Notes under the pieces: generated by a model
Database searches by the model: none
What the model was told of the DNA's origin: nothing
The model's input: only the letters and a program-made list of their open reading frames with translations
Translations under genes and position numbers: made by a program
Source: Desulfosarcina cetonica JCM 12296
GTDB lineage: Bacteria; Desulfobacterota; Desulfobacteria; Desulfobacterales; Desulfosarcinaceae
Length of the DNA: 64,000 nucleotides
Direction of reading: 5' to 3'
NCBI RefSeq assembly: GCF_001311845.1
Contig: NZ_BBCC01000014.1
Location: forward strand, 1 to 64,000
Shown: positions 29,296 to 51,754 of the stretch, in pieces
Position numbering within the stretch: the stretch's first letter is position 1
Layout of the letters: every line of letters begins with the position of its first letter

Positions 29296-29337
29296 ATTGA
29301 AAGACTATTTCAATGCGAGTTGCAATAGTCTTTCAAT
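29296..29337 (+). promoter_or_regulatory. Candidate activator binding dyad (UAS) of the radical SAM operon
   Basis: ATTGAAAG (29296-29303) and CTTTCAAT (29330-29337) are separated by 26 bases; the repeat extends to 15 bp per arm here. The same half-sites with the same 26-base gap occur at 51623-51664. The dyad lies 77 bp before the GG of a sigma54-type promoter, a usual place for NtrC-family activator sites. The arms could also form a hairpin followed by Ts, so a terminator role is the alternative. Confidence 0.7.
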
Positions 29338-29411
29338 TTTTCAACCTGGTTTCTCTATCCCAAAAATAGTTAAATAACTGTTAATTCAATTGGTTAAACT
29401 GACGCTTGGAT

Positions 29412-29428
29412 TTGGTATACAATTTGCT
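29412..29428 (+). promoter_or_regulatory. Candidate sigma54 (-24/-12) promoter of the radical SAM/hyuAB operon
   Basis: TTGGTATACAATTTGCT has GG (29414-29415) and GC (29426-29427) exactly 10 bases apart and TTTGC at -12, matching the sigma54 consensus spacing. It lies 123 bases before the radical SAM start and downstream of the shared dyad. The island encodes its own sigma54 activator. Confidence 0.7.
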
Positions 29429-29550
29429 CATAGAGCTATCCAAACGTTGACTCATCTTTTGCGTTATATCGTCGAGACGATTTTTGAATGTCATAAATCA
29501 AACCGATCGTTTGATCCAAAAAAACAACTCTTGGTTAAAAGGAGCGTTCT

Positions 29551-30867
29551 ATGCCGGGTAAAATGCCATATGAAAAGTACCAGCTTGACAATTATTTTGA
29601 GAAATATTCATATGTTAACAAAGAAGTAATCATAAAGGAAGACCTTCTTCGCCTGGGAGTATCTTTTACCTCCAGCGCTTTGGAAGAATCCTCCAAATTC
29701 GCGACAAAATCTTATTATCTGTTTTCATACGACGCCATGGATGTGGACGATATGAAGAACAAAGAGTTTATCAAGGCGCCGGAGTGCTTTAAATTCAAGG
29801 GCGGCCCTTATAATCTCAGACCTTCCAACAACAAAACCTGCCTAGATAAGCCCGAGAAGACGCCATATAAAGTCGATTACGTCGATGGTGAACTGAAACT
29901 GTTCTGGGAAGACAATTACCTGGCCGATGTAGAACTTCGCCCCAAACCCCCCTATTATGCCCATACGCTTCCGGACGGAACGCCTTACTCGGATGTGGCG
30001 GCTTCTGTTTTCTTCGGTTATCTGACGTTCTGCACGATCTTAAGAAGTTGTCAGTACTGGGGTAAAAAAGAGGAGTGCATCTTCTGCGACATCAATACCA
30101 ATGCCCGAAAACAGTCTAAAACCGGCAGACCCTTTATGATTCACAAAAGTGTTGAAGACGTCGTTACGGTAATTGATACCATTTTCAATAAAGAACGGGA
30201 GGATATCAATCATTCCCTTCTGTTGACCGGGGGGGCCATCTTCAAGCAGACCGCCCAGCTCAGCGGTATGGAAAACGTTGAATTCTATGCACAATATATC
30301 CGCGCCATTCGAGAGAAGATCGGCAATCGATGGGGGATCCACCAACAGACAACGGCCCTGACCATCCCTGAATGCAAAGTGTTAAAGGAAGCCGGTGTCG
30401 ATTGCCACCATGCAAACATTGAGGTCTGGGATAAGGATCGGTTCAAAGTTTATTGCCCTGGAAAGCAGCAGTTGATCGGCAGGGACGAATGGATCAAGCG
30501 GGTGTGTGATTCCGTGGACGTCTTTGGCGAAGGGCATGTTGTACCAACCTTTGTAAGCGGCTGCGAACTTGCCAAGCCCTGGGGGTTCGAGAAGTGGGAA
30601 GATGGGGTGAAATCAATGAAGGACGCCTGGGAATTTCTCATGTCCCACGGCGTTACGCCAAGAAGTTCCAGCTGGATTATTGAACCTAATTCAGTTCTGG
30701 GTCAATATGATCAGCCCGTCATTCCCCTTGACTACTACATTGAAGTAGACATTGCCTGGTATGAAACATGGAAAAAATACAACCTGCCACCGATCTATAA
30801 TTTTACCCCCATGGGCCCTGGTCGTTGCCTGAGCATCAACAGCGGGCATCTCGATATGGGATCATGA
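29551..30867 (+). CDS. Radical SAM enzyme with expanded CX8CX2C cluster motif
   Basis: 438 aa, intact, with AAAAGGAG 4-11 bases upstream. Around residue 165-185 the sequence LRSCQYWGKKEECIFCD gives Cys-X8-Cys-X2-Cys; the last two cysteines with the aromatic before the third match the radical SAM pattern, while the first spacing is 8 rather than 3. The GGE-like motif follows as LLLTGGAIFK, and later stretches IHQQTTALTIPE and GVDCHHANIEVWD fit a radical SAM barrel. Such enzymes cleave S-adenosylmethionine with a 4Fe-4S cluster to start radical chemistry. It is the first gene after a sigma54 promoter, 74 bases upstream of hyuA, so it probably acts early in the pathway. The reaction is unknown. 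Confidence 0.78.
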   Translation: MPGKMPYEKYQLDNYFEKYSYVNKEVIIKEDLLRLGVSFTSSALEESSKFATKSYYLFSYDAMDVDDMKNKEFIKAPECFKFKGGPYNLRPSNNKTCLDKPEKTPYKVDYVDGELKLFWEDNYLADVELRPKPPYYAHTLPDGTPYSDVAASVFFGYLTFCTILRSCQYWGKKEECIFCDINTNARKQSKTGRPFMIHKSVEDVVTVIDTIFNKEREDINHSLLLTGGAIFKQTAQLSGMENVEFYAQYIRAIREKIGNRWGIHQQTTALTIPECKVLKEAGVDCHHANIEVWDKDRFKVYCPGKQQLIGRDEWIKRVCDSVDVFGEGHVVPTFVSGCELAKPWGFEKWEDGVKSMKDAWEFLMSHGVTPRSSSWIIEPNSVLGQYDQPVIPLDYYIEVDIAWYETWKKYNLPPIYNFTPMGPGRCLSINSGHLDMGS

Positions 30868-30941
30868 GCACTTCAATGACCTTGAATGCGATAGAGTGGC
30901 CATTCTTCAGCTGGCACGAATGAAATAAGGAGATAAATCAA

Positions 30942-33058
30942 ATGAAATACAAGCTAGGCATTGATGTTGGCGGGACTTTCACAGATTTTTTGCTTGTCGA
31001 CGAAAATGGCGATCATAACATTTTCAAGTCTCTGACAACGCCGAAGAATCCTTTCGGCGGCGTTAACGCCGGTCTTAATAAAATAGCTGAATTTACTGGT
31101 AAAACAAACGGAGATTTTTTAAGTAGCCTTGAACTTATTGTGCATGGCACCACCATTACCACCAATGCAACATTGACCCGAAACGGCGTCAAGACTGCGT
31201 TTATCACGACAAAAGGGTTCAGAGATATTTTAAACATGCGGCGCGGACTGCGGTCCCGTCAATACGATTCCCGATACGAACCACCGCCAGAGTTTATTAA
31301 ACGCAGAGACATCTTTACCGTTACCGAAAGAGTGGATTGCAAGGGAAATATTCTCGAGTCAATTAACGAAGAAGAAATGAGAGAAATCATTGAGCGGATA
31401 AAAAAGAACGGCGACTACAAAGCCATTGGAGTGAGTACGCTCTTTTCCTATGTCAACCCTGAAAATGAGAAAAAAATAGGGAAAATGCTGAGAAAAGCAT
31501 TCCCTGATGTTTATGTTTCGCTTTCACACGAAATCCTTCCGCAGGTCAGATTCTATGAACGGAACAGCACAATCGCTTTGAATGCCTATGTGGGCCCCAT
31601 TTTATCCGAGTACCTTGACCGCGCTGAAGGCGGACTGCAAAAGGACGGATTTGAAGGACTACTGCTTATCATGCAATCCAACGGAGGGGTTATGTCTCCG
31701 GAGATGAGCAGCCGTTTTGCGGTCAACACGCTTCTCTCTGGGCCAGCGGGGGGTCCTGTTGCCGGCCAGTTCGTTAGCGGAATTCACGGTTTGAACAATA
31801 TTATCACGGTCGATATGGGCGGAACGAGTTTTGATGTTTGTCTTATCAAAGACGGCCAGCCGGCTATAACGACGGAAGGTGACATTGGCGGATACCGAAT
31901 CGCCTTACCCACGCTTTATATTGAAACCATTGGCGCCGGTGGCGGAAGCATCGCTTCCGTCGATTCCGCCGGACTGCTCCAGGTCGGCCCCCAGAGCGCC
32001 GGTGCGTCTCCAGGACCAGCTTGTTATGGCCTTGGCGGAACAGAACCCACGGTTACCGATGCGGATTTAATCCTGGGCTATCTTTCTCCGGATTACTTTC
32101 ACGGCGGCGATTTGATGCTGGATAAAAACGCGGCGGTGAAGGCAACCGACGAAAAAGTAGCTCAACGATTGGGTATCACCGTGAATGAAGCCGCCAACGG
32201 CATTTATCAAATGATCAACAGCAATATGGCCATGGGGGTCAAACTGGTTTCTGTGAGCAAGGGGCACAATCCCATGGATTTTGCATGGTGGTTGCCGGCG
32301 GAGCTGGGCCGATCCACGCGGCGCCCATCGCCAAGGAAATGGATATTCCACTTATCATCGTTCCTCGGGGGTCGTCAGTCTTTTGCGCATCCGGCATGCT
32401 GATGAGCGATCTCAAACATGACTATGTGACTACCTATACTTCCGAATTCTCAAAGATAGATATCAATCGTGTCAATCAGATATGCAAGAAATTGCTGGCG
32501 GAGGCAAAAGACACCCTGCAGAAAGAAGGAATTCGCCCTGAAAACATTCTCAGTTTATTCAGCGCCGACATCCGCTATCTGGGTCAATTCAACGAAGTCA
32601 ACATCGATCTTTCCTTTAATGAATCGGAATCCTTTGGTGAGGATAATGTTAAATATTTAAATAAATTATTCCACAAGACCCACGACTCCCTTTATGGATA
32701 CAGTTTGCCCAACGCCGAGCTGGAACTGATCAACATTCGACTTCAGGCAGTTGGAAAAACAGAAAAGCCGGCCTTCCGGGAAAGTCCCCGTCAATCCTCC
32801 GATGCATCGCATGCATTGAAAAACAACCGCCAGGTTTTTTTCTACGGCAAGTTTATGAGTACGCCGGTTTATGACGGCCTTTTGCTAAAACATGGAAATA
32901 TTGTCTTCGGCCCCGCCATTGTTGAAGAACCGACGACAACCATCGTGGTACCACCCGACTTCGATCTAACCTGTGATTCTCATGACAATTATCTGCTGCA
33001 TCGAAAAGATCAGAATCTGGAAGAGGTTATTTCCATATTAAAAGAGAGACTTCAATAA
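30942..33058 (+). CDS. hyuA: Hydantoinase/oxoprolinase family subunit A (frameshifted)
   Basis: About 705 aa. The ATPase core shows KLGIDVGGTFTDFLLVDENG at the start and ITVDMGGTSFDVCLIKDG around residue 290, with IVHGTTITTNATLTRNGVK between them; the C-terminal part contains EEPTTTIVVPPDFDL. These are hallmarks of HyuA, the ATP-binding subunit of N-methylhydantoinase, 5-oxoprolinase and acetone-carboxylase relatives, which phosphorylate a lactam or carbonyl to open or carboxylate it. AAGGAG precedes the ATG. One C is missing near 32284 (GCC to GC). HyuB follows 11 bases downstream. HyuAB-type enzymes open lactam rings in anaerobic indoleacetate breakdown, a useful parallel. Confidence 0.87.
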
Positions 33059-33069
33059 AGGAGACGACA

Positions 33070-34821
33070 ATGGGAAATAAAAAACTTGATCCAATTACTC
33101 TTTCTGTTCTGGCAAACCGTTTCGAATCTGTTTGTAGCGAGATGGGCGAAACCATGCTGCGGACTTCCCATTCCCCGATTTTCAGCGAGGCCAGAGATTT
33201 TGTAACCGGAGTCTTTGACGCCAATGGCCGCATGATCGCCCAAAAACCGTATATAGCCGTTCTGGCTGGTGCACTTCCCTATTGCATGAAAGCAATTCTC
33301 GACTTTTACGATGGCGATATCCAGGATGGGGACGTTATCCTGACTAACGACCCTTATCTGGGAGGCAATAACCATATGCCGGATTTCACCGTTGCACGGC
33401 CCATCTTCTCAGGAGATGAAATTATATTTTGGGCGGTCGCCAAGGGCCATATGGTCGATACCGGCTCCGAGGGATGTTGCGGTTACAATCCCGAGGCCAG
33501 CAACATATGGCAGGAAGGCATTCGGATTCCCCCCTCGAAAATATACAAGCAGGGAAGATTCAACCGAAGCGTGTGGAACCTTCTATTGAACAATGTAAAA
33601 ATGCAGTCCCTGTTTGAAGGTGATTTAAATTGTCTTGTGGGCGCTACCACGTTGGGAGAGCGAAAGCTGAAACACGCCATGAAGACAAATGGGGTCAGGA
33701 CGCTTCTTCAGGCAGTGGATCAGATCATCGAAGCCACTGAAAATCATATGCGGGAAGAAATCCGCAAGATACCCGATGGAGAATACAGTGCGGAAAGGCA
33801 TATGGACCATGACGGGTTCGTGCGGGACAAAAAAGTCAAGATCAAGCTTACCGTCAAGGTTAACGGCGATCGAATCATCTTCGATTTTACGGGATCCGAC
33901 CCACAGGTGCAAGGGCCCATCAATAATACGGAAGCCAATACGTTCTCTTCGGTATGCCTTGCCTTGTTTATGACCATTGATCCGGATATCCGCAAAAACG
34001 GCGGCGCGCTTGCGCCCATTGAACTGATCGCGCCGCAGGGTAGTGTGGTCAACTGCCAGGAGCCTGCGGCCTGCACCGCTTCCACCATTTGCGGTACGGC
34101 AACGATTGTGGAGGCGGTGTGGCTTGCTCTCTCCCAGGCCGTGCCGGAACTGGCCCAGGCGTCCTGGGGGCGTTGGTCGGCGCCGGCCACAATGGGTTTC
34201 AATGACCGAACCGGCCGGCTCTTTGGTGACATTCACTTCATGAGCAAAGGCGGCGCTGGAGCCACCCTGGGCTATGATGGATGGAATCATCTCGGCGTGA
34301 TCTCCTGTGCAGGCGGTTTGAGATCTCCGGATCCAGAGTTGCACGAGTTGGTCACTCCCTATCGGATATTGCAGTACGAATATCTGGCGGACAGTTGCGG
34401 CCCCGGCAAATGGCGGGGAGGCATGGGTACCGCATACAGATGGCTCGTTGAGGCGGATGGCATCATCTCTGACAATTTTGGAGACGGGCTGATGCCGGAA
34501 ACCGGCCCCTTCGGCATTGTCGGAGGAAAAGGCGGCAAACCGAGCAGCCTTCTCGTGACCAGGCCTGACGGTTCCACCGAGGATCCCGAGGTGCACAAAT
34601 TTGTGACGCTCAACAAGGGTGATGTGTACAGCATACAAGGCGCCGGAGGCGGTGGTTATGGCGATCCTTTTGAACGTTCCATTGACAAGGTTGTCGACGA
34701 TGTTCTCGATGAGTTGATTTCCCTGGAAACCGCCCGAGAAGAATACGGCGTTGTCTTGGATCTGGAAACCATGCAGGTTGACAAGGAATCGACCAATCGG
34801 CTGCGGGAAGCGAGGAAATAG
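33070..34821 (+). CDS. hyuB: Hydantoinase/oxoprolinase family subunit B
   Basis: 583 aa, intact, with AAAGGAG upstream. Typical HyuB features: LDPITLSVLANRFESVCSEM at the start, ETMLRTSHSPIFSEARDF, DVILTNDPYLGGNNHMPDF and the C-terminal GAGGGGYGDPFERS. HyuB provides the metal-dependent hydrolytic half of an ATP-driven cyclic-amide hydrolase together with HyuA. The operon order radical SAM-hyuA-hyuB ends here with a hairpin at 34830-34856. The alternative is a carboxylase of the acetone carboxylase type, but the gamma subunit of that enzyme is absent. Confidence 0.88.
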   Translation: MGNKKLDPITLSVLANRFESVCSEMGETMLRTSHSPIFSEARDFVTGVFDANGRMIAQKPYIAVLAGALPYCMKAILDFYDGDIQDGDVILTNDPYLGGNNHMPDFTVARPIFSGDEIIFWAVAKGHMVDTGSEGCCGYNPEASNIWQEGIRIPPSKIYKQGRFNRSVWNLLLNNVKMQSLFEGDLNCLVGATTLGERKLKHAMKTNGVRTLLQAVDQIIEATENHMREEIRKIPDGEYSAERHMDHDGFVRDKKVKIKLTVKVNGDRIIFDFTGSDPQVQGPINNTEANTFSSVCLALFMTIDPDIRKNGGALAPIELIAPQGSVVNCQEPAACTASTICGTATIVEAVWLALSQAVPELAQASWGRWSAPATMGFNDRTGRLFGDIHFMSKGGAGATLGYDGWNHLGVISCAGGLRSPDPELHELVTPYRILQYEYLADSCGPGKWRGGMGTAYRWLVEADGIISDNFGDGLMPETGPFGIVGGKGGKPSSLLVTRPDGSTEDPEVHKFVTLNKGDVYSIQGAGGGGYGDPFERSIDKVVDDVLDELISLETAREEYGVVLDLETMQVDKESTNRLREARK

Positions 34822-34829
34822 AATTGGCC

Positions 34830-34949: not shown

Positions 34950-37226
34950 ATGCAGAACGAAATGAAGATTGTCGGGAAAAGAGTTGTCCGCAGCGACACG
35001 TTGGCCAAGGTCACCGGCCAGGCACGGTATACCGCTGACTTGAAGATGCCCAACATGCTGGTGGCGAAAGTGCTGCGCAGCCCGCATGCCCACGCCAAGA
35101 TCAACCGTATCGACGTCAGCGAGGCCCTGAAAATGCCGGGCGTGAAAGCGGCCATCAGTGGCTTTGACGGCTATGGAATCAAATGGGGGGTCTTTCGGTA
35201 CACCCAGGATCACGCCATGCTTCCCACGGACAAAGTCCGCTACATCGGCGAGGATGTAGCCGCGGTCGCGGCCGTGGACGAGGAAACGGCCATCGAGGCA
35301 CTCTCCCGCATCAAGGTCGATTATGAGCCCCTGCCGGCCGTTTACGATCCCATCGAAGCCATGCAGGACGGCGCGCCGCTGATCCACGACCAATACAAGA
35401 ACAACATCAACATTCATGTGAATATCGAGGAAGGGGAGGTCGACAAGGCCATGGAGAGTGCCTTCCTCGTCCGGGAGGATACGTTCAAATCCGCCGGCGA
35501 AGCTACGCCATGATGGAACCCTATGCGGTCGTGGCATCCTATCGAAATGGTTACCTCGACCTGTGGATGCCCAATGCCGGGCCTCACGTTCGTGCCAAAG
35601 CGATCGCCAACCTGCTCAAGATGCCGCTGAACAAGGTGCGCGTGCGCCACATCAATTCCGGCGGTGCCTTCGGCGGCCGATCGGAGGTGGCCCCCGGCGA
35701 TCTCGTCGCATCGCTTCTGGCCATGAAGAGTGGCAAACCGGTAAAGCTCGTTCTTTCCCGCGAGGAGAACGCCACCAGCACGAGACAGATTCACGACATG
35801 ATCGCAACGATCAAAACCGGAATGGCAAAGGACGGCACCATCGTCGCCAAGGACTATCGGGTGATCTATGACGGCGGCGCCTACAGCTCCACAGGCCCCA
35901 TCGCCACCTCGATTCCCTATTATGTGTACGAGGAATGCTATCGTTTGCCCAATGTCCGTTACAACGGCTACCGGATCATCACCAATAAAGGCATCAGGGG
36001 AATGTATGGATGCCACGGAAGAGCCTTTCTGGGAGGTAACGAGGCTCAGATGGATCTGATGGCCAAAGAACTCGGCATGGATCCTGTGGAGATACGCCTC
36101 AAGAACGGCCTCACGGCTGGTGAAATGACGGCCACGAAATCCAAGATCTCCAGCTGTGGCCTCAAAGAGACCATAGAAATAACGTCGGAGAAGACGGACT
36201 TCAAAAAAAGATGGGCCCAGGCACAGAACCCCAAAGGCATCGGATGGGGTGTATTGCCATTATGTGCGGCTTTCCTATGGGTTTTCGTTCCCTGTCGACC
36301 TGTTATCTCAAAATCAATGATGACGGCTATGTGACGCTCGTGACCGGCGTCGTGGACAACGGGCAGGGAAACGAATCCATGGTGATTCAGGCCGCCGCCG
36401 AGATCCTCGGTGTGCCCATGGAGGACATCAACCTCGTGAATGCCGACACGGAAGTCACCAACCTCGATCCGGGCGCTATTCACAAGCGGCCGCCTTCGTC
36501 AGCACCAACGCGGTGAAGGTGGCTTGCGAGAATGCACGCCAGCAGATTGTCGCCATTGCAGCGGAAAAACTGGGTGTGCCCGAGGCGGACATCGCCCTGA
36601 AAGACCGGCTTGTTTACTCCATGGAAAATCCGGAAAAGAAAATGCGCCTTTCCTGGGTGGTGAGAGAAGCCTTTGCCAGAGCTCAGCCGATCGCCGCCAC
36701 GGGAACGTTTTTCCCCCATATAGATCTGAAAAGAGAATGGATTTCAAGGCCCTGGGGCCAGATGGCGGGAACATTTTCCTATGCCACATCCGTGGCCGAG
36801 GTTGCCATTGATCCGGAAACCGGAGAAATCACGGTTCCCCATTTCACGGCCGCCCACGATTGCGGGCGGGCCATCAATCCCATGGCCGTAGAAGGGCAAA
36901 TGGAAGGCTCCGTTCAACAGGCGGGAATGGCGGCCATCACCGAAGGCAACCTGTGGGATGGCGGCCACCTGCTGAATCCGGATCTGCTGGACTATAAAGT
37001 CCCGCTGGCCTGTGACATGCCGGAGATCGACGCCATCATCGTGGAATCCATTGATCCGGTGGGACCGTTCGGGGCCAAGGAAGGCGGTATTGCCATCCGT
37101 ATGAATGCCTACAGTGCCATTGCCTGTGCGGTATCGCAGGCCACGGGCACGCTTTTCAAGGAATTTCCCCTGACGCCGGACAAGGTTTTGGAACTGGTAG
37201 AAAACGGGAAGGAGGAAACAAGATGA
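34950..37226 (+). CDS. Xanthine-dehydrogenase-family molybdenum subunit 1 (frameshifted)
   Basis: About 759 aa from ATG 34950, with GGGAGGTG upstream. Aldehyde oxidase/xanthine dehydrogenase domain 1 (KVTGQARYTADLKMPNML, LRSPHAHAKI), then molybdopterin-binding regions INSGGAFGGRSE, RGMYGCHGRAFLGGNEAQ, DNGQGNESMVIQAAAEI and HDCGRAINPMAVEGQMEG. Three bases are missing, near 35502, 36243 and 36486, each in a G run; all four pieces then join. The final active-site block reads GPFGAKEGGIAIRMNAY. Relatives have Glu where this protein has Ile (compare GAKSAGESG in the second copy), so the usual catalytic base appears to be missing. It is the first gene of a large-FAD-FeS operon. Confidence 0.87.
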
Positions 37227-38167
37227 TCCTGCCTGATTTTGAGTATAGGAAAGCCGAGACGGTTGCCGATGCCATCGGTCTTTACAACGAATTCGCCGGG
37301 AATGTGCGCTATCTGGCCGGTGGTACCGATCTGATGCCCCTGCTCAAACACCGGTTGTCGACACCGGCGGTGGTCATCGACCTCAAGGGCATCCTTGATC
37401 TCAGCACCATCACCGCTCAGGACGGATGGTTGACCATCGGGGCCAATGTCACGCTCTTTGCCCTCAAGCAGAATCAAACCATACGAGATTATTTCCCTGT
37501 GTTTTACCAATCGCTGGAGGCTACGGCCTGTGAAACCCTTCAGATGCGGGGCACCATTGGCGGTAATCTTCTCCAGGATACACGCTGCATTGAGTACAAC
37601 AAATCCAATGACTGGCGGGTTGCCCGAGGCTTTTGTCTGAAGATGGGCGGCAAGACATGCAATGTGGTGCCAGGTGCCCGGGTCTGTCTGTCCAACTATT
37701 GCAGCGACAACGCGCTGGCATTGATTTCGCTGTCGGCAACGGTGAAAGTAATCGGTCCCGGGGGTGAGCGAGCAATGGCAATAGAAGAAATCTTCAGTGG
37801 CAAGGGCAGCAAGCCCTTTGCTCTCGAGCCTGGCGAGATACTCACCCATATCCGTATCCCGATGGAGAAATCCAAAGGCGCATATGAAAAATTGCGGGTC
37901 CGAAAATCCATCGACTATCCCCTGGTGGCGGTGGCGGCCTGCTTAAAAGAAGATAATGCCCGGATCTGCGTGGGCGGTATCGGGCCGGCGCCCCGGGTCT
38001 ATGACCTGAAGGGCTTGGGTACAGATCGTGTCGTCGATGCGTCCCGCAGTACTTATGCCGACGCAAAGGCGGTGAGCAATACCACACTCTCCCCTGAATA
38101 CCGGAAACGAATGGCGGGGGTATTGTTTCGAAGAGCTGTCAATAAAGCCCTGAAGGAGGAAAAATAA
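37223..38167 (+). CDS. Xanthine-dehydrogenase-family FAD subunit 1
   Basis: 314 aa, intact. FAD-binding VRYLAGGTDLMPLLKHRL near residue 30 and TLQMRGTIGGNLLQDTRC near 100 are the two FAD loops of the CoxM/HbaC family. The Cys-rich insertion (DTRC...ARGFC...KTC...VCLSNYC) resembles 4-hydroxybenzoyl-CoA reductase beta subunits, which hold an extra 4Fe-4S cluster; this is suggestive only. The start overlaps the large-subunit stop by 4 bases and the stop overlaps the FeS-subunit start by one base. Confidence 0.87.
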   Translation: MILPDFEYRKAETVADAIGLYNEFAGNVRYLAGGTDLMPLLKHRLSTPAVVIDLKGILDLSTITAQDGWLTIGANVTLFALKQNQTIRDYFPVFYQSLEATACETLQMRGTIGGNLLQDTRCIEYNKSNDWRVARGFCLKMGGKTCNVVPGARVCLSNYCSDNALALISLSATVKVIGPGGERAMAIEEIFSGKGSKPFALEPGEILTHIRIPMEKSKGAYEKLRVRKSIDYPLVAVAACLKEDNARICVGGIGPAPRVYDLKGLGTDRVVDASRSTYADAKAVSNTTLSPEYRKRMAGVLFRRAVNKALKEEK

Positions 38168-39969: not shown

Positions 39970-40009
39970 CCGGCGCATCAAGACCGGTGACCTGTCGGCC
40001 TTGGTTTAG

Positions 40010-40162
40010 AAGAAGGGGTATCCATTCATCGGCGGTGCCCGATCTTTTAGAGATTGTGAATACGCCTTGATTCATCCGCAGAAGGTCAATGGCGTCCTAA
40101 CCGAACTCATTGATTATCAATGGGAAGAATTCAAAAAAGAATACGTTAGCGAATCCAGCTGA
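40010..40162 (+). pseudogene. C-terminal fragment of a second VOC protein
   Basis: Open from 40010 to the stop at 40160-40162, encoding KKGYPFIGGARSFRDCEYAL then IHPQKVNGVLTELIDYQWEE. This matches the last ~45 residues of the intact VOC protein (FVHHPRELNGVLTELLDG). A stop codon precedes it and no start is available. It is a remnant of a paralog. Confidence 0.75.
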
Positions 40163-40186
40163 AAGTATTGTGAGTTTATAGACTTC

Positions 40187-42099: not shown

Positions 42100-42121
42100 T
42101 ACTACGATAAGGAGAGAAAGA

Positions 42122-43270: not shown

Positions 43271-43284
43271 TGGAGAACCCTTTT

Positions 43285-44538
43285 ATGAAATCGGCCGAAA
43301 AATTAAATATCAGTAAAAGCCAGGCCTTGTTTGAAGAAGCCATCACGCTTATTCCGGGCGGTGTTCTCGGTGCCAGAAAACCATCCGACTTTATTGACGG
43401 CGAATATCCGATTTTTTTGGAAAGCGGAAAAGGTTGCCGGCTGATCGATGTGGACGGCAATGAATACATCGATTTTTTATGCGGGTACGGCCCGATTATT
43501 TTGGGATACCGTGAACCGGAAATCGACGATGCCGTCTATGCACAAATCCGGGACAAAGGCTTTTGTTTTACACTCACCCAAAAATATCAGAACCTTCTTG
43601 CCAAGAAACTCAAGGAACTCGTGCCGTCTTCCGAAATGAGCATTTTTCTAAAGACCGGATCGGACGCCACGACCGCCGCGATTCGTATTGCCCGGGCGCA
43701 TACCAACAAGATCAAGGTCATGCGTTGCGGATATCATGGCTGGCATGACTGGTGTGTAGAAATGAAAGGAGGAATCCCCGCTAAATTCTATGAAGATGTA
43801 TTTGAGTTCCAATACAATCGATTGGACCAACTCGAAGAATTAATGGCCGTTCATGGCGCGAATACAGCCGCCATCATCATGACCCCCTTTGGCCATCCCA
43901 ATCATCAGAAAATGCAAACGCCCGCCCCCGGATTCCTGGAAGGTGTTCGCGAATTGGCGAATCGATACGGTGCGGTATTGGTTTATGATGAAATTCGCAC
44001 GGGGTTTAGGGTGTCCATGGGAGGGGCGCAAGAGCGCTATGGGGTGACACCGGATTTAAGTGTCTTGGGCAAGGCGATCGCCAACGGATACCCCATCTCG
44101 GTGGTGACTGGGAAGAGAGAAGTCATGATGGCGGCAGCGGATAAACTCTTCATTTCCTCAACCTTTTTCCCGAACAGCGAAGCATTTATCGCCGCACTCA
44201 AGACCATTGAAATTATAGAACGCGACCATGTGCTGGAAGATATATGGGAGAAGGGCGAGAAATTTATGGGGGGCATTCAGACCCTGATTGATAAGCACCA
44301 AGTCGGTGCCGAATTAACGGGAATCGCCCCCATGTTTTACATTACCTTTGAACCGGATGAAACCGGAACGTACAAAGGAAAGCGAAAAGATTTTTACACC
44401 CAATTAATCCGCAAAGGCTTCTTCTTCACACCATTTCATCATGCCTATATTTCATATCGCCACTCGCAGGCGGATCTTGATTTGGCTTTGACCGCCATCG
44501 ATGAGTCGTTGGCATTTATCAAGAGCAAATATAGCTAA
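43285..44538 (+). CDS. Class III aminotransferase (glutamate-1-semialdehyde-aminomutase-like)
   Basis: 417 aa from ATG 43285 (MKSAEKLNISKSQALFEEAI), with TGGAG 9 bases upstream; an in-frame ATG at 43270 overlaps the previous stop and is less likely. PLP-fold features: FLCGYGPIILGYREPEI, FLKTGSDATTAAIRIARAHT, YHGWHDW, LVYDEIRTGFRVS and the PLP lysine in SVLGKAIANGYPISVV. It resembles HemL but lies outside heme genes, so it more likely moves an amino group within a pathway intermediate (aminomutase or transaminase). Confidence 0.85.
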   Translation: MKSAEKLNISKSQALFEEAITLIPGGVLGARKPSDFIDGEYPIFLESGKGCRLIDVDGNEYIDFLCGYGPIILGYREPEIDDAVYAQIRDKGFCFTLTQKYQNLLAKKLKELVPSSEMSIFLKTGSDATTAAIRIARAHTNKIKVMRCGYHGWHDWCVEMKGGIPAKFYEDVFEFQYNRLDQLEELMAVHGANTAAIIMTPFGHPNHQKMQTPAPGFLEGVRELANRYGAVLVYDEIRTGFRVSMGGAQERYGVTPDLSVLGKAIANGYPISVVTGKREVMMAAADKLFISSTFFPNSEAFIAALKTIEIIERDHVLEDIWEKGEKFMGGIQTLIDKHQVGAELTGIAPMFYITFEPDETGTYKGKRKDFYTQLIRKGFFFTPFHHAYISYRHSQADLDLALTAIDESLAFIKSKYS

Positions 44539-44569
44539 TGCCGTAAAAAAATTGCCAAGGATCTGAAAA

Positions 44570-45373
44570 ATGAAAATCTGGAGCCAGTTGCCCATATCTA
44601 TGCCCAGGGAAGTTTATGGAAAGTATTACGACCTTCTGAACCGGGCATATGAAATGTTCAAGGATGAAGAAACGGAAATAACCATCAAGGATGTTCCTAA
44701 AGGGGTGGTTGATCCGGGATTGCTGTCCTGCCCGGGGTTTAGGCAAATCAACGAAGCTGAGAATATTAAAAGCATCTTGCAGGCGGAGACGGAAGGCTAT
44801 GATGCGGTTGCCGGCGCTTGCTATTTTGATTCCGGCATACGGGCGGCATCCACGCTGCTGTCGATCCCGGTGGTTGGGCCGGCCGAGGCGTCAATGCACT
44901 TGGCTGCAATGATGGGTAACAAATTTGCCGTTATCACGTCAGAAGCGTCCTGGACCCATGAAATGACGCATCATCTGACCGGCTCCGGATTTTCAGGCGC
45001 CGCCATTTCAAAACAGCCGGTCAGGTCCCTGACCCTGCCGATGGATGAATTGTTCCATTGTCTCATGACCGGCGATTACAATCCGGTCAAAGCGGATTTC
45101 TTCAAAGTTGCGGAGGGCTGCCTTGACGATGATGCAGATGTCATCATCGTTGGATGCGGCCTTGTTTCCCCCATCCTCACCATAAGCGATCTCAGAGAAA
45201 TTGACGGTGCTCCAATTATAGATCCAATGATTGCATCCCTTAAGTTCGCGGAGTTCTTCGGACGTCTTTTCAAATCCGGATTACCGATCAAAACCCGAAT
45301 AGGTCTGTATCAAACATTGCCGGATGAAATGAAGTCAAAAGGACTTAACCAATTGAGCCTGTATGCGGTTTGA
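44570..45373 (+). CDS. Asp/Glu/hydantoin racemase-like protein
   Basis: 267 aa. The two catalytic Cys positions of the family appear in VAGACYFDSGIRAAST (N-terminal half) and VIIVGCGLVSPIL (C-terminal half), so a two-base racemase/isomerase mechanism is possible. PVVGPAEASMHLAAMMG is typical of hydantoin-racemase and arylmalonate-decarboxylase relatives. Together with HyuAB this recalls hydantoin metabolism, although the true substrate is not known. It starts 31 bases after the aminotransferase. Confidence 0.75.
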   Translation: MKIWSQLPISMPREVYGKYYDLLNRAYEMFKDEETEITIKDVPKGVVDPGLLSCPGFRQINEAENIKSILQAETEGYDAVAGACYFDSGIRAASTLLSIPVVGPAEASMHLAAMMGNKFAVITSEASWTHEMTHHLTGSGFSGAAISKQPVRSLTLPMDELFHCLMTGDYNPVKADFFKVAEGCLDDDADVIIVGCGLVSPILTISDLREIDGAPIIDPMIASLKFAEFFGRLFKSGLPIKTRIGLYQTLPDEMKSKGLNQLSLYAV

Positions 45374-45395
45374 AACCGACGAATGGGGAGCAAGA

Positions 45396-45532
45396 ATGCC
45401 TCTGGGCTTTTGAATTAACACATCATGGCGTTGTGCCCTTTTTTAGTATCGAAACGGACCTGTTGATCCTAAATCGTTGCTTTTTGTTTCGCCGAGGATT
45501 TTCGCAAACAAACGTTAATTACTATGGAGTAA
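45396..45532 (+). pseudogene. Truncated copy of the unknown 194-aa protein family
   Basis: With frame corrections it reads MPLGF-ELTHHGVVPF-SIETD and LLILNRCFLFAEDFRKQT, then stops. This matches the first ~45 residues of the protein at 39385. GGGGAG precedes the ATG. The rest of the gene is absent; the outer membrane protein starts 4 bases later and takes its ribosome site (GGAG) from the end of this remnant. Confidence 0.7.
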
Positions 45533-45535
45533 AAA

Positions 45536-46432
45536 ATGAAAAAGTCTTTTTTTATTGCTGTAGCGGTATCCTTGATGTTGATCTGTGCTCCTGTGGTTCA
45601 GGCTGGTTGTCATTATGTAAACGGCGTGGAAGGGATAAAAGCGGCAACCATTCCGCCACCGGGTTTTTACTATCGCATGTACAATGTTTACTTGGCCAAC
45701 GATGAATACAAGGATGATCATGGCAATGAGTCCGGCGATTTCGATCTTGATGTTTTCTGCCAGGCCCACAGATTCATCTGGGTGGCCGATTATCAGTTGC
45801 TGGGCGCTGATTTTTTTGCGGACATCGGCATCCCGCTTGTCTATACGAACATTCGCATGGGCGCTGGTGACGTTACCTGGGTTGACGAGAATCAATTCGG
45901 CATGGGTGATATTTTGCTCGAACCCTTTGCCTTGGCATGGCATGGCCCGCGCTATGATGCCGCCGTTGCGCTTGGTGTTTACCTGCCGGTTGGCAGGTAC
46001 AACGTCAATAAGCCGAATGCTTCTCCGGGAAAAAATTACTGGACGGGTATAACCCAGTTCGGAGGAACGCTGTATCTCGACAAGGAAAAGAAATGGTCCG
46101 TTTCTCTTCTCGCCCGCTATGAAATCAACAGCGAAAATAGCGAGACCGAGTTGACCAGGGGGGATTTTTTTAGTTTGGAATGGGGGCTCGGGAGCAAGCT
46201 CGGCCAAGGTTGGGAAATTGGCGTGGCCGGTTACTCCGAGTGGCAGGTAACCGATGATTCCGGAAATGGCGCTACGGAAAATCGTACCCAACTCTCCGCG
46301 GTGGGACCTGAAATCAACTATTTTCTGGTGCCTTTGAAAACGAATATGACGCTTAGGTATTTAAAACAATTTGGTGCCAAGAACACTTCAGAAGGATCAA
46401 TGGCAATACTAACGTTAACTTATGTATTTTAA
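45536..46432 (+). CDS. Outer membrane protein of the phenol-degradation MetA/SphA type
   Basis: 298 aa. Signal peptide MKKSFFIAVAVSLMLICAP ending near VQAG, then a beta-barrel-like body with alternating residues and a C-terminal Phe (LTLTYVF), the usual outer membrane insertion signal. Stretches HYVNGVEGIKAATIPPPGFY and GVYLPVGRYNVNKP are typical of the family linked to uptake of aromatic or hydrophobic compounds. It ends the operon, followed by a strong terminator. Confidence 0.8.
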   Translation: MKKSFFIAVAVSLMLICAPVVQAGCHYVNGVEGIKAATIPPPGFYYRMYNVYLANDEYKDDHGNESGDFDLDVFCQAHRFIWVADYQLLGADFFADIGIPLVYTNIRMGAGDVTWVDENQFGMGDILLEPFALAWHGPRYDAAVALGVYLPVGRYNVNKPNASPGKNYWTGITQFGGTLYLDKEKKWSVSLLARYEINSENSETELTRGDFFSLEWGLGSKLGQGWEIGVAGYSEWQVTDDSGNGATENRTQLSAVGPEINYFLVPLKTNMTLRYLKQFGAKNTSEGSMAILTLTYVF

Positions 46433-46469
46433 CCCTTTTTGAACGCATGCGGTGGCGTTCAAGCCCAAA

Positions 46470-46520
46470 AAGCGCTGGGCTGGTGCTGCCATTGCGGATG
46501 AGCCCAGCGCTTCTTTTTTT
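46470..46520 (+). terminator. Strong rho-independent terminator
   Basis: A 12-bp perfect stem (46470-46481 with 46501-46512) with a 19-base loop is followed by CTTTTTTT. It lies 38 bases past the outer membrane protein stop. Confidence 0.88.
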
Positions 46521-46674
46521 GCACGCCTTCCGTCCAACGATTCTCCACCACCCCGTGCGATAGTGACCGCGTTTTTTTATAACTATAATTTTACATTTTT
46601 GTATCGTGCTTTAGTGATTTGAGATTTTGGAAAAGGGATGGATGTGACTCGGCAGAATTCAATAGGAGGAGAAG

Positions 46675-47556
46675 ATGCTATACCGAAAACTTTATTCATT
46701 TGACTATGAGGAAGCAAGGGATGTTCCGGAAGCGATTTCTCTGTTACAGACGCATGGCACGGAAGCGGCTGTCATGGCTGGGGGGATCGGTCTGATCGAG
46801 GAGATGAAACGAAGGGCCGTAACACCGAAGGTCGTTGTGTCCCTGCAACCGATAGACCAGCTGAAGTTTTTGGACGTATCCGACGGAAATCTTCGCATCG
46901 GTGCCCTATCAAAACTATCCCATGGTGAGCAATCCAATGTTGTCAAAGAGGGCTTCCCCGCCTTGTGGGAAGCTATCGCCCAGATTTCTTCGGCCCAGGT
47001 CCGGAACATGGGTACCATCGTTGGCAACATCACTGCGTGCAATCCGGGTTCAGATGTGGCAACGGCCCTGGTGGCGCTTGACGCATCGGTCAAGATCGCT
47101 GATGGCAACGGTGGAAAATGTATTCCCATCAAATCATTTGGTGTTCACTCACGCAAAAACATCCTAAAACCTGGCGAAATCGTAACCGAGATCATTGTTC
47201 CGTGTTTGGCGCCGGGGGCCCAGACAGCATTCTTGAATCTCGCCCGGACGAAGGAGGATTGCGCGAAAGTCGTGGTTGCCGTCAATGCGCGGGTAACCGA
47301 AGGTGTAATCGAAGATATAAAAATTGCCCTGGGTGCGGTGGCACCAACGATTGTAAGGGCGACGACGGTTGAAACGATGTTGTTAGGTGAGAAGCCGAGC
47401 GAAGGGTTGATTCAGGCAGCATCGGAGCGGGCATCCCAGGAAAATATGGTTACCCCGATCAGTGATATTCGATCAACGTCACAATACAGAAGTCAAATGG
47501 TATCCGTTCTGACACGGCGTGCGCTGACTCGGGTGTTTCAAAACCATATGAATTAA
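46675..47556 (+). CDS. Xanthine-dehydrogenase-family FAD subunit 2
   Basis: 293 aa, intact, with AGGAGG upstream. FAD loops AAVMAGGIGLIEEMKRR (~35) and AQVRNMGTIVGNITACNPGS (~105) mark the CoxM type. The gene is first in the second molybdoenzyme operon (FAD-FeS-large-XdhC), an order different from the first set, so the two sets are not a simple tandem copy. It follows a 240-base gap that holds a terminator and an AT-rich stretch; I found no sigma54 site there. Confidence 0.87.
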   Translation: MLYRKLYSFDYEEARDVPEAISLLQTHGTEAAVMAGGIGLIEEMKRRAVTPKVVVSLQPIDQLKFLDVSDGNLRIGALSKLSHGEQSNVVKEGFPALWEAIAQISSAQVRNMGTIVGNITACNPGSDVATALVALDASVKIADGNGGKCIPIKSFGVHSRKNILKPGEIVTEIIVPCLAPGAQTAFLNLARTKEDCAKVVVAVNARVTEGVIEDIKIALGAVAPTIVRATTVETMLLGEKPSEGLIQAASERASQENMVTPISDIRSTSQYRSQMVSVLTRRALTRVFQNHMN

Positions 47557-47576
47557 ATCAGAAGGAGCGTCTACTC

Positions 47577-48053
47577 ATGAAAAAGATTGAAGCGACCTTT
47601 ATCGTTAACGGAAATCCTTATGAAATCTATGTTGATTCCCATGCGCTGCTCATAGAAGTGCTGCGTGATGAATTGGGGTGTAAATTGAATGGGGTTCATG
47701 AAAGTTGCGGTTCCGGGGATTGCGGCGCATGTACTGTTCTTGTTGATGGGGAACCGATTCTCTCATGCATGACACTTGCGGTATCCGTCCGCGGGAAAGC
47801 AATTACAACCATTGAAGGGCTCGCCAAAGGAACCGAACTGCATCCGCTTCAAGAGGCGTTTGTATCGAATGGCGCGATTCAATGTGGCTACTGTACGCCG
47901 GGCATGATTCTTTCGGCCAAGGGACTATTGGATCAGAATCCGAACCCAAGTGAGTTAGAGGTTAAAAAAGCCCTTGCCGGTAATCTGTGTCGGTGTACCG
48001 GTTACAAGAAAATCATCGATGCGGTACTGCGTGTTTCAAAAGGAGGGAATTGA
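47577..48053 (+). CDS. Xanthine-dehydrogenase-family 2Fe-2S subunit 2
   Basis: 158 aa, intact. First cluster CGSGDCGACTV, second cluster CGYCTPGM and CRCTGYKKII: all eight ligands present. It passes electrons from the molybdenum site to the FAD subunit. AGAAGGAG precedes the ATG, and its stop lies one base before the large-subunit start. Confidence 0.92.
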   Translation: MKKIEATFIVNGNPYEIYVDSHALLIEVLRDELGCKLNGVHESCGSGDCGACTVLVDGEPILSCMTLAVSVRGKAITTIEGLAKGTELHPLQEAFVSNGAIQCGYCTPGMILSAKGLLDQNPNPSELEVKKALAGNLCRCTGYKKIIDAVLRVSKGGN

Positions 48054-48054
48054 A

Positions 48055-50347
48055 ATGGCAGAAGATTTAAACGTCGTGGGGCAGCGCTTGATACCGAAGG
48101 AGAACCTGGATAAGGCGACCGGACGGGCAGAGTACTGTACTACCGTATCACTTCCCGGTATGCTGGTGGGAAAAATATTGCGAAGCCCCCACGCCCATGC
48201 CAAAGTGCTCTCGGTAAACACCTCCGAAGCAAAAAAAATCCCCGGCGTAAAGGCCGTTGTGACCGGAACGGATTTCCCGCGTGTGTTCTATTCCAACAAT
48301 GTCATGACCTATCAATGCGCCGAAGGAGAGCCCCAGGACATGATTTTGTTCGGCGATGTGGTTCGCTATGTCGGTGAGCCGGTAGCTGCCGTGGCCGCTG
48401 TAAACGAAGAAGTCGCCCGGATGGCGTTGGCCGCCATCGATGTCTCGTATGACGTGCTTCCGGCTGTGTTTACCATCGATGAGACCCTGAAAGACGGGGC
48501 GCCCCAAATTCATGAAGGCGTACCCAACAACACGCCCGTGCCTCCGACACCTTATTTTTTGTTATGGCGACATCGATCAAAGTATCGCCGAATCCGATGT
48601 GATCGTTTCGGGGGTGTTCCAACTTAGTAAGCAGGTCCAGGCCGGGCTGGAAAACGCCTGTGCCGTTGCTGATTACAACGGGGGTCGATTGACCGTTTGG
48701 AGCCAGATCCAATTGCCCCATATGGCAAAACGAATGCTCGCCCAAATTTTTGAATTGTCCGAATCTGAAGTCAGGATTATCCAGCCCTATGCAGGATGCG
48801 GATTCGGGGCTGGCACGGATTTGTGCACGGAGCATTTGGCGGCAGCTCTGGCAATAAAGGCCGGTTTGCCGGTTAAGCTGAAATTCTATCGTAACGAGGA
48901 TTTTTCCAATCGCTTTACGCGGGAACACGTTCAACGCGTCGACATGAAATTGGGATTTTTAAAAGACGGTACCCCCAAAGCCTGCCAAGCCAGGTATACA
49001 GGCAATGCCGGCGGGTATATGGCCAAAGCCGCGTCCGGATGTGCGGTGGCCTTGGCCTCCAATCTCACCCCGTATGCGTTTGAAAGCATGTACCAAGAGA
49101 TCGAAGCCCGATACACGAATTTGTTGCCCGGCGGGGCGATGCGTGGATTCGGTGGTATTCAATCGAGCTTTGCCCGTGAAATCCTATTGGATGAAGCCTG
49201 CGAAATAATCGGCATGGACCCCATCGAATTCCGCAAAAAGTTTCATCGTCAAGTTGGCGATGCGGCGTGGTTCCCAGGATCACATATCTCAAGCTGTGGG
49301 TTGGATGAGTGCTTAGATATCGGGGCAGAGAAAATTGGATGGAAGGATAAGTGGCGCAAAATGCCAGCCGAGGGATCTATTCGAAGGGGGGTGGGGGTGG
49401 CCTCGATGGCATGGTTGAGCGGGGCCCAGCCCATGCTTCTTGAGCATACCAACGCCACGCTAAAATTCAATGCTGACGGTGGGTGTTCGCTAATCGTTTG
49501 CTTGGGAAATATCGGCCAGGGCGTGGGGACTGCCCTGACCCAGATCGCCGCCGAAATATTAGGCCTTGGTTTTGATGATATTCATTTGGTTTGTCAGGAT
49601 ACGGATGTTACCGGATTTGACATCGGCACCCACGCCTCCAGGGGATGCTACTGTATCGGCCAGGCGGTCCAGAAGGCCTCGTTAAAAGCGAAACATCTTA
49701 TTTTTGAACGAGCGGCAAAAAAGCTCGGTGTTGCGGTGGCGTCATTGGAAATGAAGGATAAACGCATTTTCGTGAAGACCGACCCGGAAAAAGGAATTGC
49801 TTATCGTAAGTTGGCTGAGGATTTGATTTATAATTTTGAAGGCGACTGCCAACAACTCGTCGTTCATGCCACCGCTGAACCCAGTGACTTTGCTCCCCCA
49901 TGGCAGGCCGGTTTTGCAGAAGTTGCCGTCGATATCGAAACCGGGGAAGTCGAGATTGCTAAATGGCTGACGGTCCATGATGTGGGTAAGGCAATCAACC
50001 CCACGATCGTGGAAGGCCAACTAGAGGGAGGGACGATGCAAGGCATTGGCTTTTCCCTTTATGAAGATCCCGTCTACAACGAACAAACCGGTGTATGCAT
50101 GACGGACGGCTTTGATAAGTATAAAATCCCAACAACACTCGATATGCCCGATCATGAAGCCATTCTTGTCGAATTGGGCGATCCCACCGGCCCATTTGGG
50201 GCGAAAAGCGCTGGTGAATCGGGTAATTTTCTCCAGGCACCCGCGATCGCCAATGCAATCTATGATGCGGTTGGGATAAGGCTTCGGGAAGTGCCCATGA
50301 CACCAGAAAAAATATTGGCGGCCATTCAAGAAAAGAATAACCAATAA
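48055..50347 (+). CDS. Xanthine-dehydrogenase-family molybdenum subunit 2 (frameshifted)
   Basis: About 763 aa from ATG 48055, with GGAGGG upstream. Domain 1 KATGRAEYCTTVSLPGML and LRSPHAHAKVLS; molybdopterin-binding regions YAGCGFGAGTDLC, GGAMRGFGGIQSSF, NIGQGVGTALTQIAAE and HDVGKAINPTIVEGQLEGG; active-site block GPFGAKSAGESGNFLQ with the conserved Glu. So this copy keeps the catalytic residue that the first lacks. A T-run near 48555-48560 has one base too many, which splits the gene. Substrate is likely an N-heterocycle or aldehyde-like compound. Confidence 0.9.
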
Positions 50348-50393
50348 GCCAAATTGATTAAGATCCGAGTCATAGGACATCTTCTACACGAAT

Positions 50394-50466
50394 GCCCATC
50401 TCAAGAATCGAACTCCGGTTAAAGATCAACACCGATATTGACCGGAAAGACTTTTTTGAGATGGGC
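50394..50466. repeat. Nested stem-loop between molybdoenzyme 2 and xdhC
   Basis: Outer 11-bp stem (50394-50404 with 50456-50466) encloses a second 6-bp stem TCCGGT/ACCGGA. No T-tract follows. It may lower expression of the downstream maturation gene or protect the upstream message. Confidence 0.45.
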
Positions 50467-50503
50467 ACTGATTTGCAATTAATCATCTAAGGAACGTCTT
50501 ATT

Positions 50504-51594
50504 ATGTCATCAAGCAATGATTATGTCAGAATCGCGCGCTTTCTCTCGCAAGGTCGCTCAATGGTATGGATTCGGATTATCAATCGAAAAGGGTCGGCGC
50601 CACGCGATGTCGGAACGAACTGTTTATTGCTTGATGGCAATACATTGGTCGGCAGTATTGGCGGTGGCCAAATGGAATTTGAGGCGCTTAAAATGGCCAG
50701 AAGACTTTTCCTGAAAAAAAAGTCCCTACGTTATGCATTACAGCTTAACGGGAAAAGATGCCGATACATCCGGAATGATATGTGGGGGCAGTGTTGACAT
50801 TTTAATGGAGCCACTTCATCATACCGATCGGGAAATTGTCTCATTTTTTGAAGCAGTAAAACAACACATCTTGAGCGGCATTCCCGGCACCTATGTGTCC
50901 CTTGTCAACACCAACGAGGACGATTTACCAGGAACGGGTGCACAGCTGTTTGTAGGCATTGATGGAAAGGCGTTTGGATCCTTATCGGGAGGAATGCCGT
51001 TACCCGACGAATTAGCACGTATCGATTCACCAAGCTGTTCCGTTGCCCCGAAACGCGACGGATCTTTTTCGTCGATCCGCTTGAGCGGAAACCGGCATTA
51101 TTGATTTTCGGAGCCGGTCACATATCGACCTGCCTCGCACCCATGGCAAAAAAAATGGGGTTCCGCATCAGCATCATCGACGATCGGGCCGAATACGCCA
51201 ATAGGGATCGCTTCCCCGATGCTGATGAGATTCATGTCATGCCGTTCGAACTTTCAGTGAGGCGTGTTCAGACGGCCTATAACACACATGTTGCGGTCGT
51301 GACCAGAGGCCACATCCACGATAGGATTGTTCTGGAAGCGATGCTGCATCGGCCGCATGCGTATTTGGGCATGATCGGAAGCGTTAACAAACGTGATATG
51401 ATCTATAAACGTTGTTGGAAAGGGGGTTTTCGCAAGAAATGTTGTCTGGTGTTCATGCTCCCATTGGGCTGGATATCGGTGCTGAGACGCCAGAAGAGAT
51501 TGCCGTAAGTATTATTGCTGAGATCATTCATTTCAGGGCTGAAAAAAGAAAGTTTTGGAAGTCGGCACACGCAAGAAACGCCAATGTTGCATAA
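50504..51594 (+). CDS. xdhC: XdhC/CoxI-family molybdoenzyme maturation factor (frameshifted)
   Basis: About 364 aa over four frames. XdhC_CoxI domain: [19 protein letters not shown] and [13 protein letters not shown]; then [17 protein letters not shown]; then the NAD(P)-like Rossmann domain [19 protein letters not shown]; end [19 protein letters not shown]. XdhC binds the molybdenum cofactor and delivers its sulfurated form to xanthine-dehydrogenase-type enzymes (family knowledge), so it most likely serves one or both molybdoenzymes here. Shifts lie near 50757 (extra A), 51062 (missing G) and 51410. Confidence 0.85.
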
Positions 51595-51622
51595 GATGCT
51601 GGAACATTAGAAGCCTCCTACG

Positions 51623-51664
51623 ATTGAAAGAATATTACATTTAAGATTGAAGTATACTTTCAAT
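51623..51664 (+). promoter_or_regulatory. Candidate activator binding dyad (UAS) of the acyl-CoA ligase operon
   Basis: ATTGAAAG (51623-51630) and CTTTCAAT (51657-51664) are 26 bases apart, the same half-sites and gap as at 29296-29337. It lies 76 bp before the GG of the promoter below (77 bp in the other copy). The sequence between the half-sites is different, so this is not a duplicated segment. Confidence 0.72.
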
Positions 51665-51738
51665 TCATCGCGTTGCATACCTACCGACCATACTAAATTA
51701 CTTCTTTATTTCCTTGATGTTAATATAAAAAAAGCTCC

Positions 51739-51754
51739 TGGTATATCTTTTGCG
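51739..51754 (+). promoter_or_regulatory. Candidate sigma54 (-24/-12) promoter of the acyl-CoA ligase operon
   Basis: TGGTATATCTTTTGCG has GG (51740-51741) and GC (51752-51753) 10 bases apart with TTTTGC at -12. It shares TGGTAT with the radical SAM promoter and starts 96 bases before the ligase ATG. Confidence 0.72.

Follow-up and report, generated by a model that had tools for sequence, protein, structure and literature searches.

Two Operons of Desulfosarcina cetonica Form a Predicted Sigma54 Regulon of a V4R Sensor Kinase and an NtrC-family Response Regulator

A stretch of 64,000 nucleotides from Desulfosarcina cetonica JCM 12296 (contig NZ_BBCC01000014.1, positions 1 to 64,000 of the forward strand), referred to here as the window, carries two copies of a 42-bp element, each followed by a -24/-12 (sigma54) promoter element and an operon. 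The two operons probably constitute a sigma54 regulon of PcrSR-like design that would serve anaerobic catabolism under the control of a V4R sensor kinase and an NtrC-family response regulator. Most likely, this one neighbouring sensor-regulator pair switches on both operons jointly. The sites, promoter elements and domains are present in the sequence, and their layout is conserved in one relative.

In the proposed mechanism, the kinase would sense a pathway substrate or intermediate through its MopR/DmpR-like V4R domain and phosphorylate the NtrC-family regulator encoded at 57697-59036. The regulator would oligomerise on the paired operators within the two 42-bp elements, which would act as its enhancer sites (upstream activating sequences, UAS), and a DNA loop of ~85 bp would let it drive sigma54-RNA polymerase at the -24/-12 elements. 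Its targets would be a radical SAM-hyuAB-molybdenum hydroxylase operon and an acyl-CoA ligase-acyl-CoA dehydrogenase operon, giving a single co-induced regulon of two operons. Binding, phosphotransfer, the ligand, transcription and the limits of the operons are predicted here from sequence. An earlier note on this DNA had proposed a regulon defined by a shared dyad and a sigma54 promoter; the present analysis refines it in that operator pairs replace one dyad, two operons are found and the kinase contains a V4R sensor.

A 42-bp element occurs exactly twice in the assembly

The sites in the window are as follows.

29296-29337, forward strand: predicted paired operator (UAS) 1; palindromes ATTGAAAGACTATTTCAAT and GTTGCAATAGTCTTTCAAT, centred at 29305 and 29328, 23 bp apart, with 8/9 and 6/9 palindromic pairs
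51623-51664, forward strand: predicted paired operator (UAS) 2; palindromes ATTGAAAGAATATTACATT and ATTGAAGTATACTTTCAAT, centred at 51632 and 51655, 23 bp apart, with 6/9 and 6/9 palindromic pairs
29413-29428, forward strand: -24/-12 (sigma54) element TGGTATACAATTTGCT, second best sigma54-like site of the window
51739-51754, forward strand: -24/-12 (sigma54) element TGGTATATCTTTTGCG, fourth best sigma54-like site of the window
54977-54992, forward strand: sigma54-like element TGGCATCTACATTGCT, ranked third in the window and lying 81 bp upstream of where the kinase gene starts

Inspection of the 7,092,334-base assembly revealed two exact matches to ATTGAAAG-N26-CTTTCAAT, at 29296-29337 and 51623-51664, where the earlier note had reported identical half-sites and gap; both 42-bp matches are exact at those coordinates. 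When the spacer was varied (TTGAAAG-N13..43-CTTTCAA, 31 spacers, whole assembly), three places were found, comprising the two window dyads, both with N26, and one N29 place that lies inside an open frame and has no sigma54 site above 5.8 bits nearby. TTGAAAG-N26-CTTTCAA arose in 0 of 4000 and 0 of 4000 first-order Markov samples (one set per intergenic region). With up to three mismatches allowed, two matches to the dyad were also reached in 6 of 100 shuffles of the window, so the weight of this result rests on the exactness of both copies.

The repeat reported by the earlier note stands, but it is better read as a pair of palindromes 23 bp apart than as a single dyad. Each 42-bp element can be divided into two 19-bp palindromes of the form TTGAAAG-N3-CTTTCAA, the outer halves being perfect and the inner halves degenerate. 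A palindrome score of at least 6 is reached at 1.3% of window positions. Paired palindromes are the usual site layout of an enhancer-binding protein. A tandem-palindrome search at up to three mismatches returned the same two places only, and single palindromes (ATTGAA-N7-TTCAAT, at most one mismatch) occurred at 39 places. Among the 15 of these 39 that were examined, a sigma54 site of at least 11.8 bits at a distance of 20-200 bp accompanied the two window palindromes only; at the other 13, the best site within this distance reached 9.5 bits.

The stretches between dyad and promoter in the two copies align in 46 of 62 columns and the leaders in 56 of 73, each against a shuffled mean of 76%. 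Given that these sequences are no more alike than shuffles, a recent duplication of the two copies is not supported, in agreement with the earlier note.

A dispersed self-complementary repeat of ~161 bp, resembling a miniature inverted-repeat transposable element or a repetitive extragenic palindrome, occupies 29104-29264 and ends 31 bp before dyad 1. It has 14 near-full copies elsewhere in the genome at 91-98% identity.

Sigma54-like elements downstream of the repeats

Sigma54-like sites were ranked on both strands using a matrix with approximate weights based on the consensus TGGCACG-N4-TTGCW. GG-N10-GC elements were found before both target operons, a feature of members of an NtrC-family sigma54 regulon. 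The earlier note had placed such elements 77 and 76 bp after the two dyads; the elements were confirmed, but, counted from the final base of the dyad, the T of TGG is reached after 76 bp (copy 1) and 75 bp (copy 2). Measured from the centre of the proximal palindrome to the GG, the spacing is 86 and 85 bp. The assembly also encodes rpoN (PF04552, E 1e-63, contig C21).

Through the element at 54977-54992, the two-component system itself may be transcribed by sigma54. A TTACAAA-N23-TTTGTAA sequence upstream of the kinase was considered as an operator and rejected as being at chance level (378 of 1000 samples).

The layout recurs beside an orthologous kinase and regulator

Among the 80 loci kept, the closest relative of the regulator was found at L003, from a Syntrophobacteraceae metagenome-assembled genome (G300). 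This locus contains a run of genes for the kinase (41% identity), regulator (61%), radical SAM protein (81%), hyuA, hyuB, acyl-CoA dehydrogenase and molybdenum hydroxylase. Between the regulator and radical SAM genes lies TGTAAAGATCCTTTCCGGCAGCGGTGAAAGCATCTTTACA (11473-11512), of the form TGTAAAG-N26-CTTTACA, which has the 7 bp-N26-7 bp arrangement and the two AAAG-N3-CTTT cores 23 bp apart that are seen in the window. The best sigma54-like site of the locus, TGGCACGCCTCTTGTA, is at 11586, with GT instead of GC at -12, and the distance from the proximal centre to the GG is 83 bp, close to both window values. Among 20000 Markov samples of this region, 5 contained a repeat of this type with at least 5/7 half-site matches, and the exact tandem core occurs once in the L003 genome, at this locus. 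This variant repeat of the same layout, with its -24/-12 element beside an orthologous kinase and regulator, supports the regulon reading of the earlier note.

The region upstream of the radical SAM/hyuAB operon was compared in three relatives, L003/G300, G467 and G456, radical SAM orthologs of more than 80% identity being present in two further genomes of the 395 sampled in the phylum. In G467, genes for the radical SAM protein, hyuA, hyuB, acyl-CoA ligase and acyl-CoA dehydrogenase lie in this order on one strand, followed by racemase and molybdenum hydroxylase genes, and the best sigma54-like site of the 20-kb stretch, TGGCAAGGGAATTGCT, is directly before the radical SAM operon. The regulator encoded ~3.4 kb away on the opposite strand shows only 39% identity, and the genome gave no kinase match at 1e-20. 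The upstream region contains no perfect 7-bp AAAG-type repeat with N20-30; TGCCAAATTTGGCA is present instead, and a lone TGTAAAG-CC-TTTTT stretch was also found. In G456, a kinase ortholog (44%) follows hyuAB and the region upstream of hyuA ends after 136 bp at a contig end; the radical SAM gene is on a separate contig, with neither dyad nor sigma54 element upstream. Across the three relatives, a repeat of this layout was found in one, a sigma54 element in two and an orthologous kinase in two; where an orthologous kinase and a complete upstream region were both available, the repeat was present (1/1). Given that the repeat accompanies the orthologous regulator in L003 and is missing alongside the 39% identical regulator in G467, the dyad seems to follow the regulator rather than the enzymes, with one relative pointing each way.

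In G467, the TGCCAAATTTGGCA palindrome has the radical SAM operon on one side and a different two-component system on the other (locus L134, 16980-17240), and it is flanked by divergent sigma54-like sites at 16980 (reverse strand) and 17222 (forward strand).

It is improbable that the dyads serve another regulator with its gene elsewhere in the genome, the two-component system of the island controlling something else. A relative of the activator is encoded at one or more other loci of the D. cetonica genome (L092), but the dyad pair is confined to this island, the L003 variant adjoins orthologs of both kinase and regulator, and G467, where the nearby regulator differs, yielded no repeat of this kind.

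A V4R sensor kinase and a GAFTGA regulator adjoin the second operon

The candidate regulatory genes are as follows.

55058-57719, forward strand: sensor kinase, with V4R-GAF-PAS in a first frame and the histidine kinase part in a second, overlapping frame
57697-58794, forward strand: response regulator, receiver and AAA+ with GAFTGA (PF00072, PF00158; KGAFTGA in the open reading frame)
58779-59036, forward strand: C-terminal helix-turn-helix (HTH) portion of that regulator, read in another frame, 47% identical over 86 amino acids to the L003 regulator C terminus, the Fis-type class being read from that alignment

The sigma54 activator with GAFTGA and the accompanying kinase described by the earlier note are both present, but the activator frame is broken before the HTH. 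The 61% identity to the L003 regulator extends over residues 2-348, and the HTHs of both regulators contain ISRPTLR-KI-KY. The L003 kinase ortholog, which contains HisKA and HATPase_c, is a single open frame and shares 41% identity over 631 columns. In the window, the V4R sensor domain sits on the histidine kinase and not on the activator, as in PcrSR.

A Foldseek search with a model of the V4R part returned 17 matches at E ≤0.001, all of them sensors of MopR, DmpR and PoxR, with MopR the best (E 3.1e-5). Candidate zinc-site residues C134, C161, C169 and E158 (alignment A1) are invariant in the window and L003 kinases and present in that of G456. In a weak match (E 0.015), their MopR counterparts are three Cys residues and a Glu, the last of which we take to be a zinc ligand. 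In this same weak alignment, the MopR Trp that precedes the first zinc Cys, presumably the phenol-anchoring residue of the pocket, is aligned with Cys in the window, L003 and G456, and the phenol-anchoring His of MopR falls outside the aligned stretch. The zinc Glu of DmpR is numbered two residues off the aligned E158 position in a passage of PMC7264223.

Genes of the two operons and their frame breaks

The genes assigned to the two operons are as follows.

29551-30867, forward strand: radical SAM protein (variant_rSAM), first gene of operon 1 (NF045502, 171.8 bits, cut-off 125)
30942-33058, forward strand: hyuA (hydantoinase A/caprolactamase-alpha-like), split over two frames (PF01968, PF05378, PF19278)
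33070-34821, forward strand: hyuB (hydantoinase B; PF02538, 517 bits)
35510-38589, forward strand: molybdenum hydroxylase (xanthine dehydrogenase-like) subunits (MoCoBD_1, MoCoBD_2, FAD_binding_5, Fer2_2)
51835-53382, forward strand: acyl-CoA ligase, first gene of operon 2 (PF00501, PF13193)
53411-54558, forward strand: acyl-CoA dehydrogenase in two frames (PF02771 and PF02770 in the first piece; the second piece matches the L003 gene)

The elements precede the radical SAM/hyuAB and acyl-CoA ligase operons, as the earlier note had stated, the first genes being those at 29551 and 51835. The molybdenum hydroxylase subunits probably form the remainder of operon 1, as judged from common strand and order. 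The radical SAM protein, which gave no Pfam match at 0.001, is 81-82% identical in G300, G467 and G456, and the acyl-CoA ligase is 64-67% identical in G300 and G467. The hyuA match to NF050156 is below the cut-off of that model.

By their family names, the molybdenum hydroxylase, the ATP-dependent lactamase/hydantoinase-like HyuAB, the CoA ligase and the acyl-CoA dehydrogenase suggest anaerobic breakdown of a nitrogen-containing, lactam-forming or aromatic compound. No published pathway combining this gene set turned up in literature searches judged from listings alone.

Frame breaks are present in hyuA and in the genes for a molybdenum hydroxylase subunit, a symporter, the acyl-CoA dehydrogenase, the kinase and the regulator. 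They would also be seen if the island were decaying, with the regulator and several enzymes as pseudogenes and the sites as relics. Such decay is unlikely: a helicase gene outside the island is seemingly broken as well (open reading frames 25318-28209 and 28169-29041, the first covering only 319 of 582 positions of DUF3418), which fits assembly indel errors, and the regulator sequence past its frame break is still conserved. On both grounds, the many split frames are better explained by indel errors of the assembly than by decay.

Evidence weighing against the predicted regulon

Several observations weigh against the predicted regulon. In the window, no further copy of the dyad was found among the middle genes (39385-51508), and no operator matching the kinase-upstream promoter TGGCATCTACATTGCT was found. 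In the assembled sequence, the activator frame is interrupted ahead of the HTH. The V4R match of the window kinase (PF02830, E 5.8e-7, 29.9 bits) is slightly below the curated cut-off of 31, that of the L003 ortholog reaching 31.1 bits, and the AlphaFold model of the V4R part, built from two sequences, has a low mean pLDDT (predicted local distance difference test) of 57. The earlier note had expected the dyad and -24/-12 element upstream of orthologous operons in relatives. Of this expectation the promoter part was borne out in two of the three relatives with a radical SAM ortholog; the literal ATTGAAAG dyad was present in none of them and a variant in one.

In L003, the palindromes score only 6/9 and 4/9 pairs, and it is the AAAG-N3-CTTT cores and the outer 7-bp repeat that support a paired reading at this locus. 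With two or fewer mismatches, the tandem core occurs at 8 places in the L003 genome, against 9 for the reversed control. These imperfect palindromes, and a relaxed core that is not above control, lower confidence in the predicted regulon. Across the 80 regulator relatives, the motif class was not clearly enriched; it occurs at 5 places, whereas permutations average 2.1 and reach 5 in 18 of 209 cases. The second closest regulator (L004, 54%) has a strong sigma54-like site, the best of its locus, at 6663 (reverse strand), with no such dyad. At a further locus, L005, TAGAAAG-N24-CTTTCTA at 8614-8651 is followed by CGGCACACCATTTGCA at 8763, and the pair lies between a related two-component system and an operon for a branched-chain ATP-binding cassette transporter and an acyl-CoA ligase. 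By chance (Markov samples, N20-30), such a pair arose in 39 of 4000 samples at 6/7 half-site matches and in 182 of 4000 at 5/7; it is weak alone and serves as a lead only.

A role of the dyads as RNA hairpins, in terminators or leader structures, instead of protein sites is very unlikely. Folding is good for dyad 1 (-20.8 kcal/mol, z -6.8), which has T residues after it, and the other three elements fold with z of -3.0 to -3.4, but all dyads are upstream of the -24/-12 element and hence outside transcripts from it, a terminator scan flags neither window dyad, dyad 2 and the L003 repeat have no T run after them, and what is conserved instead is operator spacing and promoter distance. The terminator reading was accordingly set aside, and a control circuit with paired operators is well supported, yet of an ordinary kind.

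Distribution and possible origin of the island

No full-length kinase ortholog was found outside D. cetonica in 30 genomes of its own family, and no close radical SAM ortholog in 291 genomes of the class. The absence of these orthologs from the sampled genomes fits horizontal acquisition. A scan of viral contigs gave no radical SAM relative, and a plasmid scan gave four matches, all below 40% identity.

The acyl-CoA ligase gene lies within the radical SAM cluster in G467, behind a 119-bp gap, and near the cluster in G300, where no dyad was found before it. Because the window gene is 22 kb off and has its own dyad, the second site fits a single cluster that was later split in two with common control retained.

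More tentatively, the kinase, regulator and paired operators may be one evolving module. From the window to L003, regulator and half-sites would have changed in concert, the 23-bp spacing and promoter distance remaining fixed, and the operon could swap this module for another two-component system that brings its own operators, as in G467. On this view, the ligand of a V4R domain that kept its zinc site but apparently has Cys in place of the pocket Trp would be new and non-phenolic, such as an N-heterocycle or a lactam, and would belong to an undescribed anaerobic radical SAM/HyuAB/molybdenum hydroxylase pathway. As a joint reading, this is possible but doubtful.

The analysis assigns two operons separated by 22 kb to a single predicted regulon, for which the regulator is named and the operators and promoter elements are given exactly. 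Such a regulon suggests which genes belong to the undescribed pathway, and the V4R kinase would provide a handle on its substrate.

Comparison with known systems

BamVW is a two-component system responding to aromatic compounds, and in this it resembles the system of the window; it differs in serving another pathway. The BamVW proteins of Geobacter metallireducens are named in part of PMC11497800.

Sigma54 regulons of Desulfovibrio vulgaris mostly comprise one to four operons, and promoters no more than 100 nt from their closest UAS form the largest group, as reported in a section of PMC4641369. The size and spacing of the predicted regulon match these values. The regulators and motifs of D. 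vulgaris are different, and a GAAAG-type dyad was not seen in the portion of PMC4641369 consulted; GAAAG, CTTTC and TTGAA are likewise absent from the main text of PMC3333781.

The one-component phenol activators DmpR, MopR and PoxR share with the window a V4R sensor that has a zinc site, a GAFTGA-containing AAA+ domain and a palindromic UAS, which in these systems lies ~100-200 bp upstream of the sigma54 promoter (PMC7264223, in part). Their sensor is fused to the AAA+ activator, in contrast to the window, where the kinase carries the sensor and the activator a receiver domain.

PcrSR of Aromatoleum aromaticum EbN1 is a two-component system predicted to control anaerobic p-cresol degradation in a sigma54-dependent manner, and the domain key of the figure that depicts it lists XylR, V4R, PAS, HK, Rec and HTH (PMC10715001, in part, where no PcrSR operators are described). 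The window differs in its enzymes, which are radical SAM, hyuAB and molybdenum hydroxylase proteins, and in the GAF domain of its kinase. The likeness lies in a V4R domain carried by the two-component sensor, PcrS, and in a sigma54 consensus promoter before an anaerobic catabolic cluster, as given in the same part of PMC10715001.

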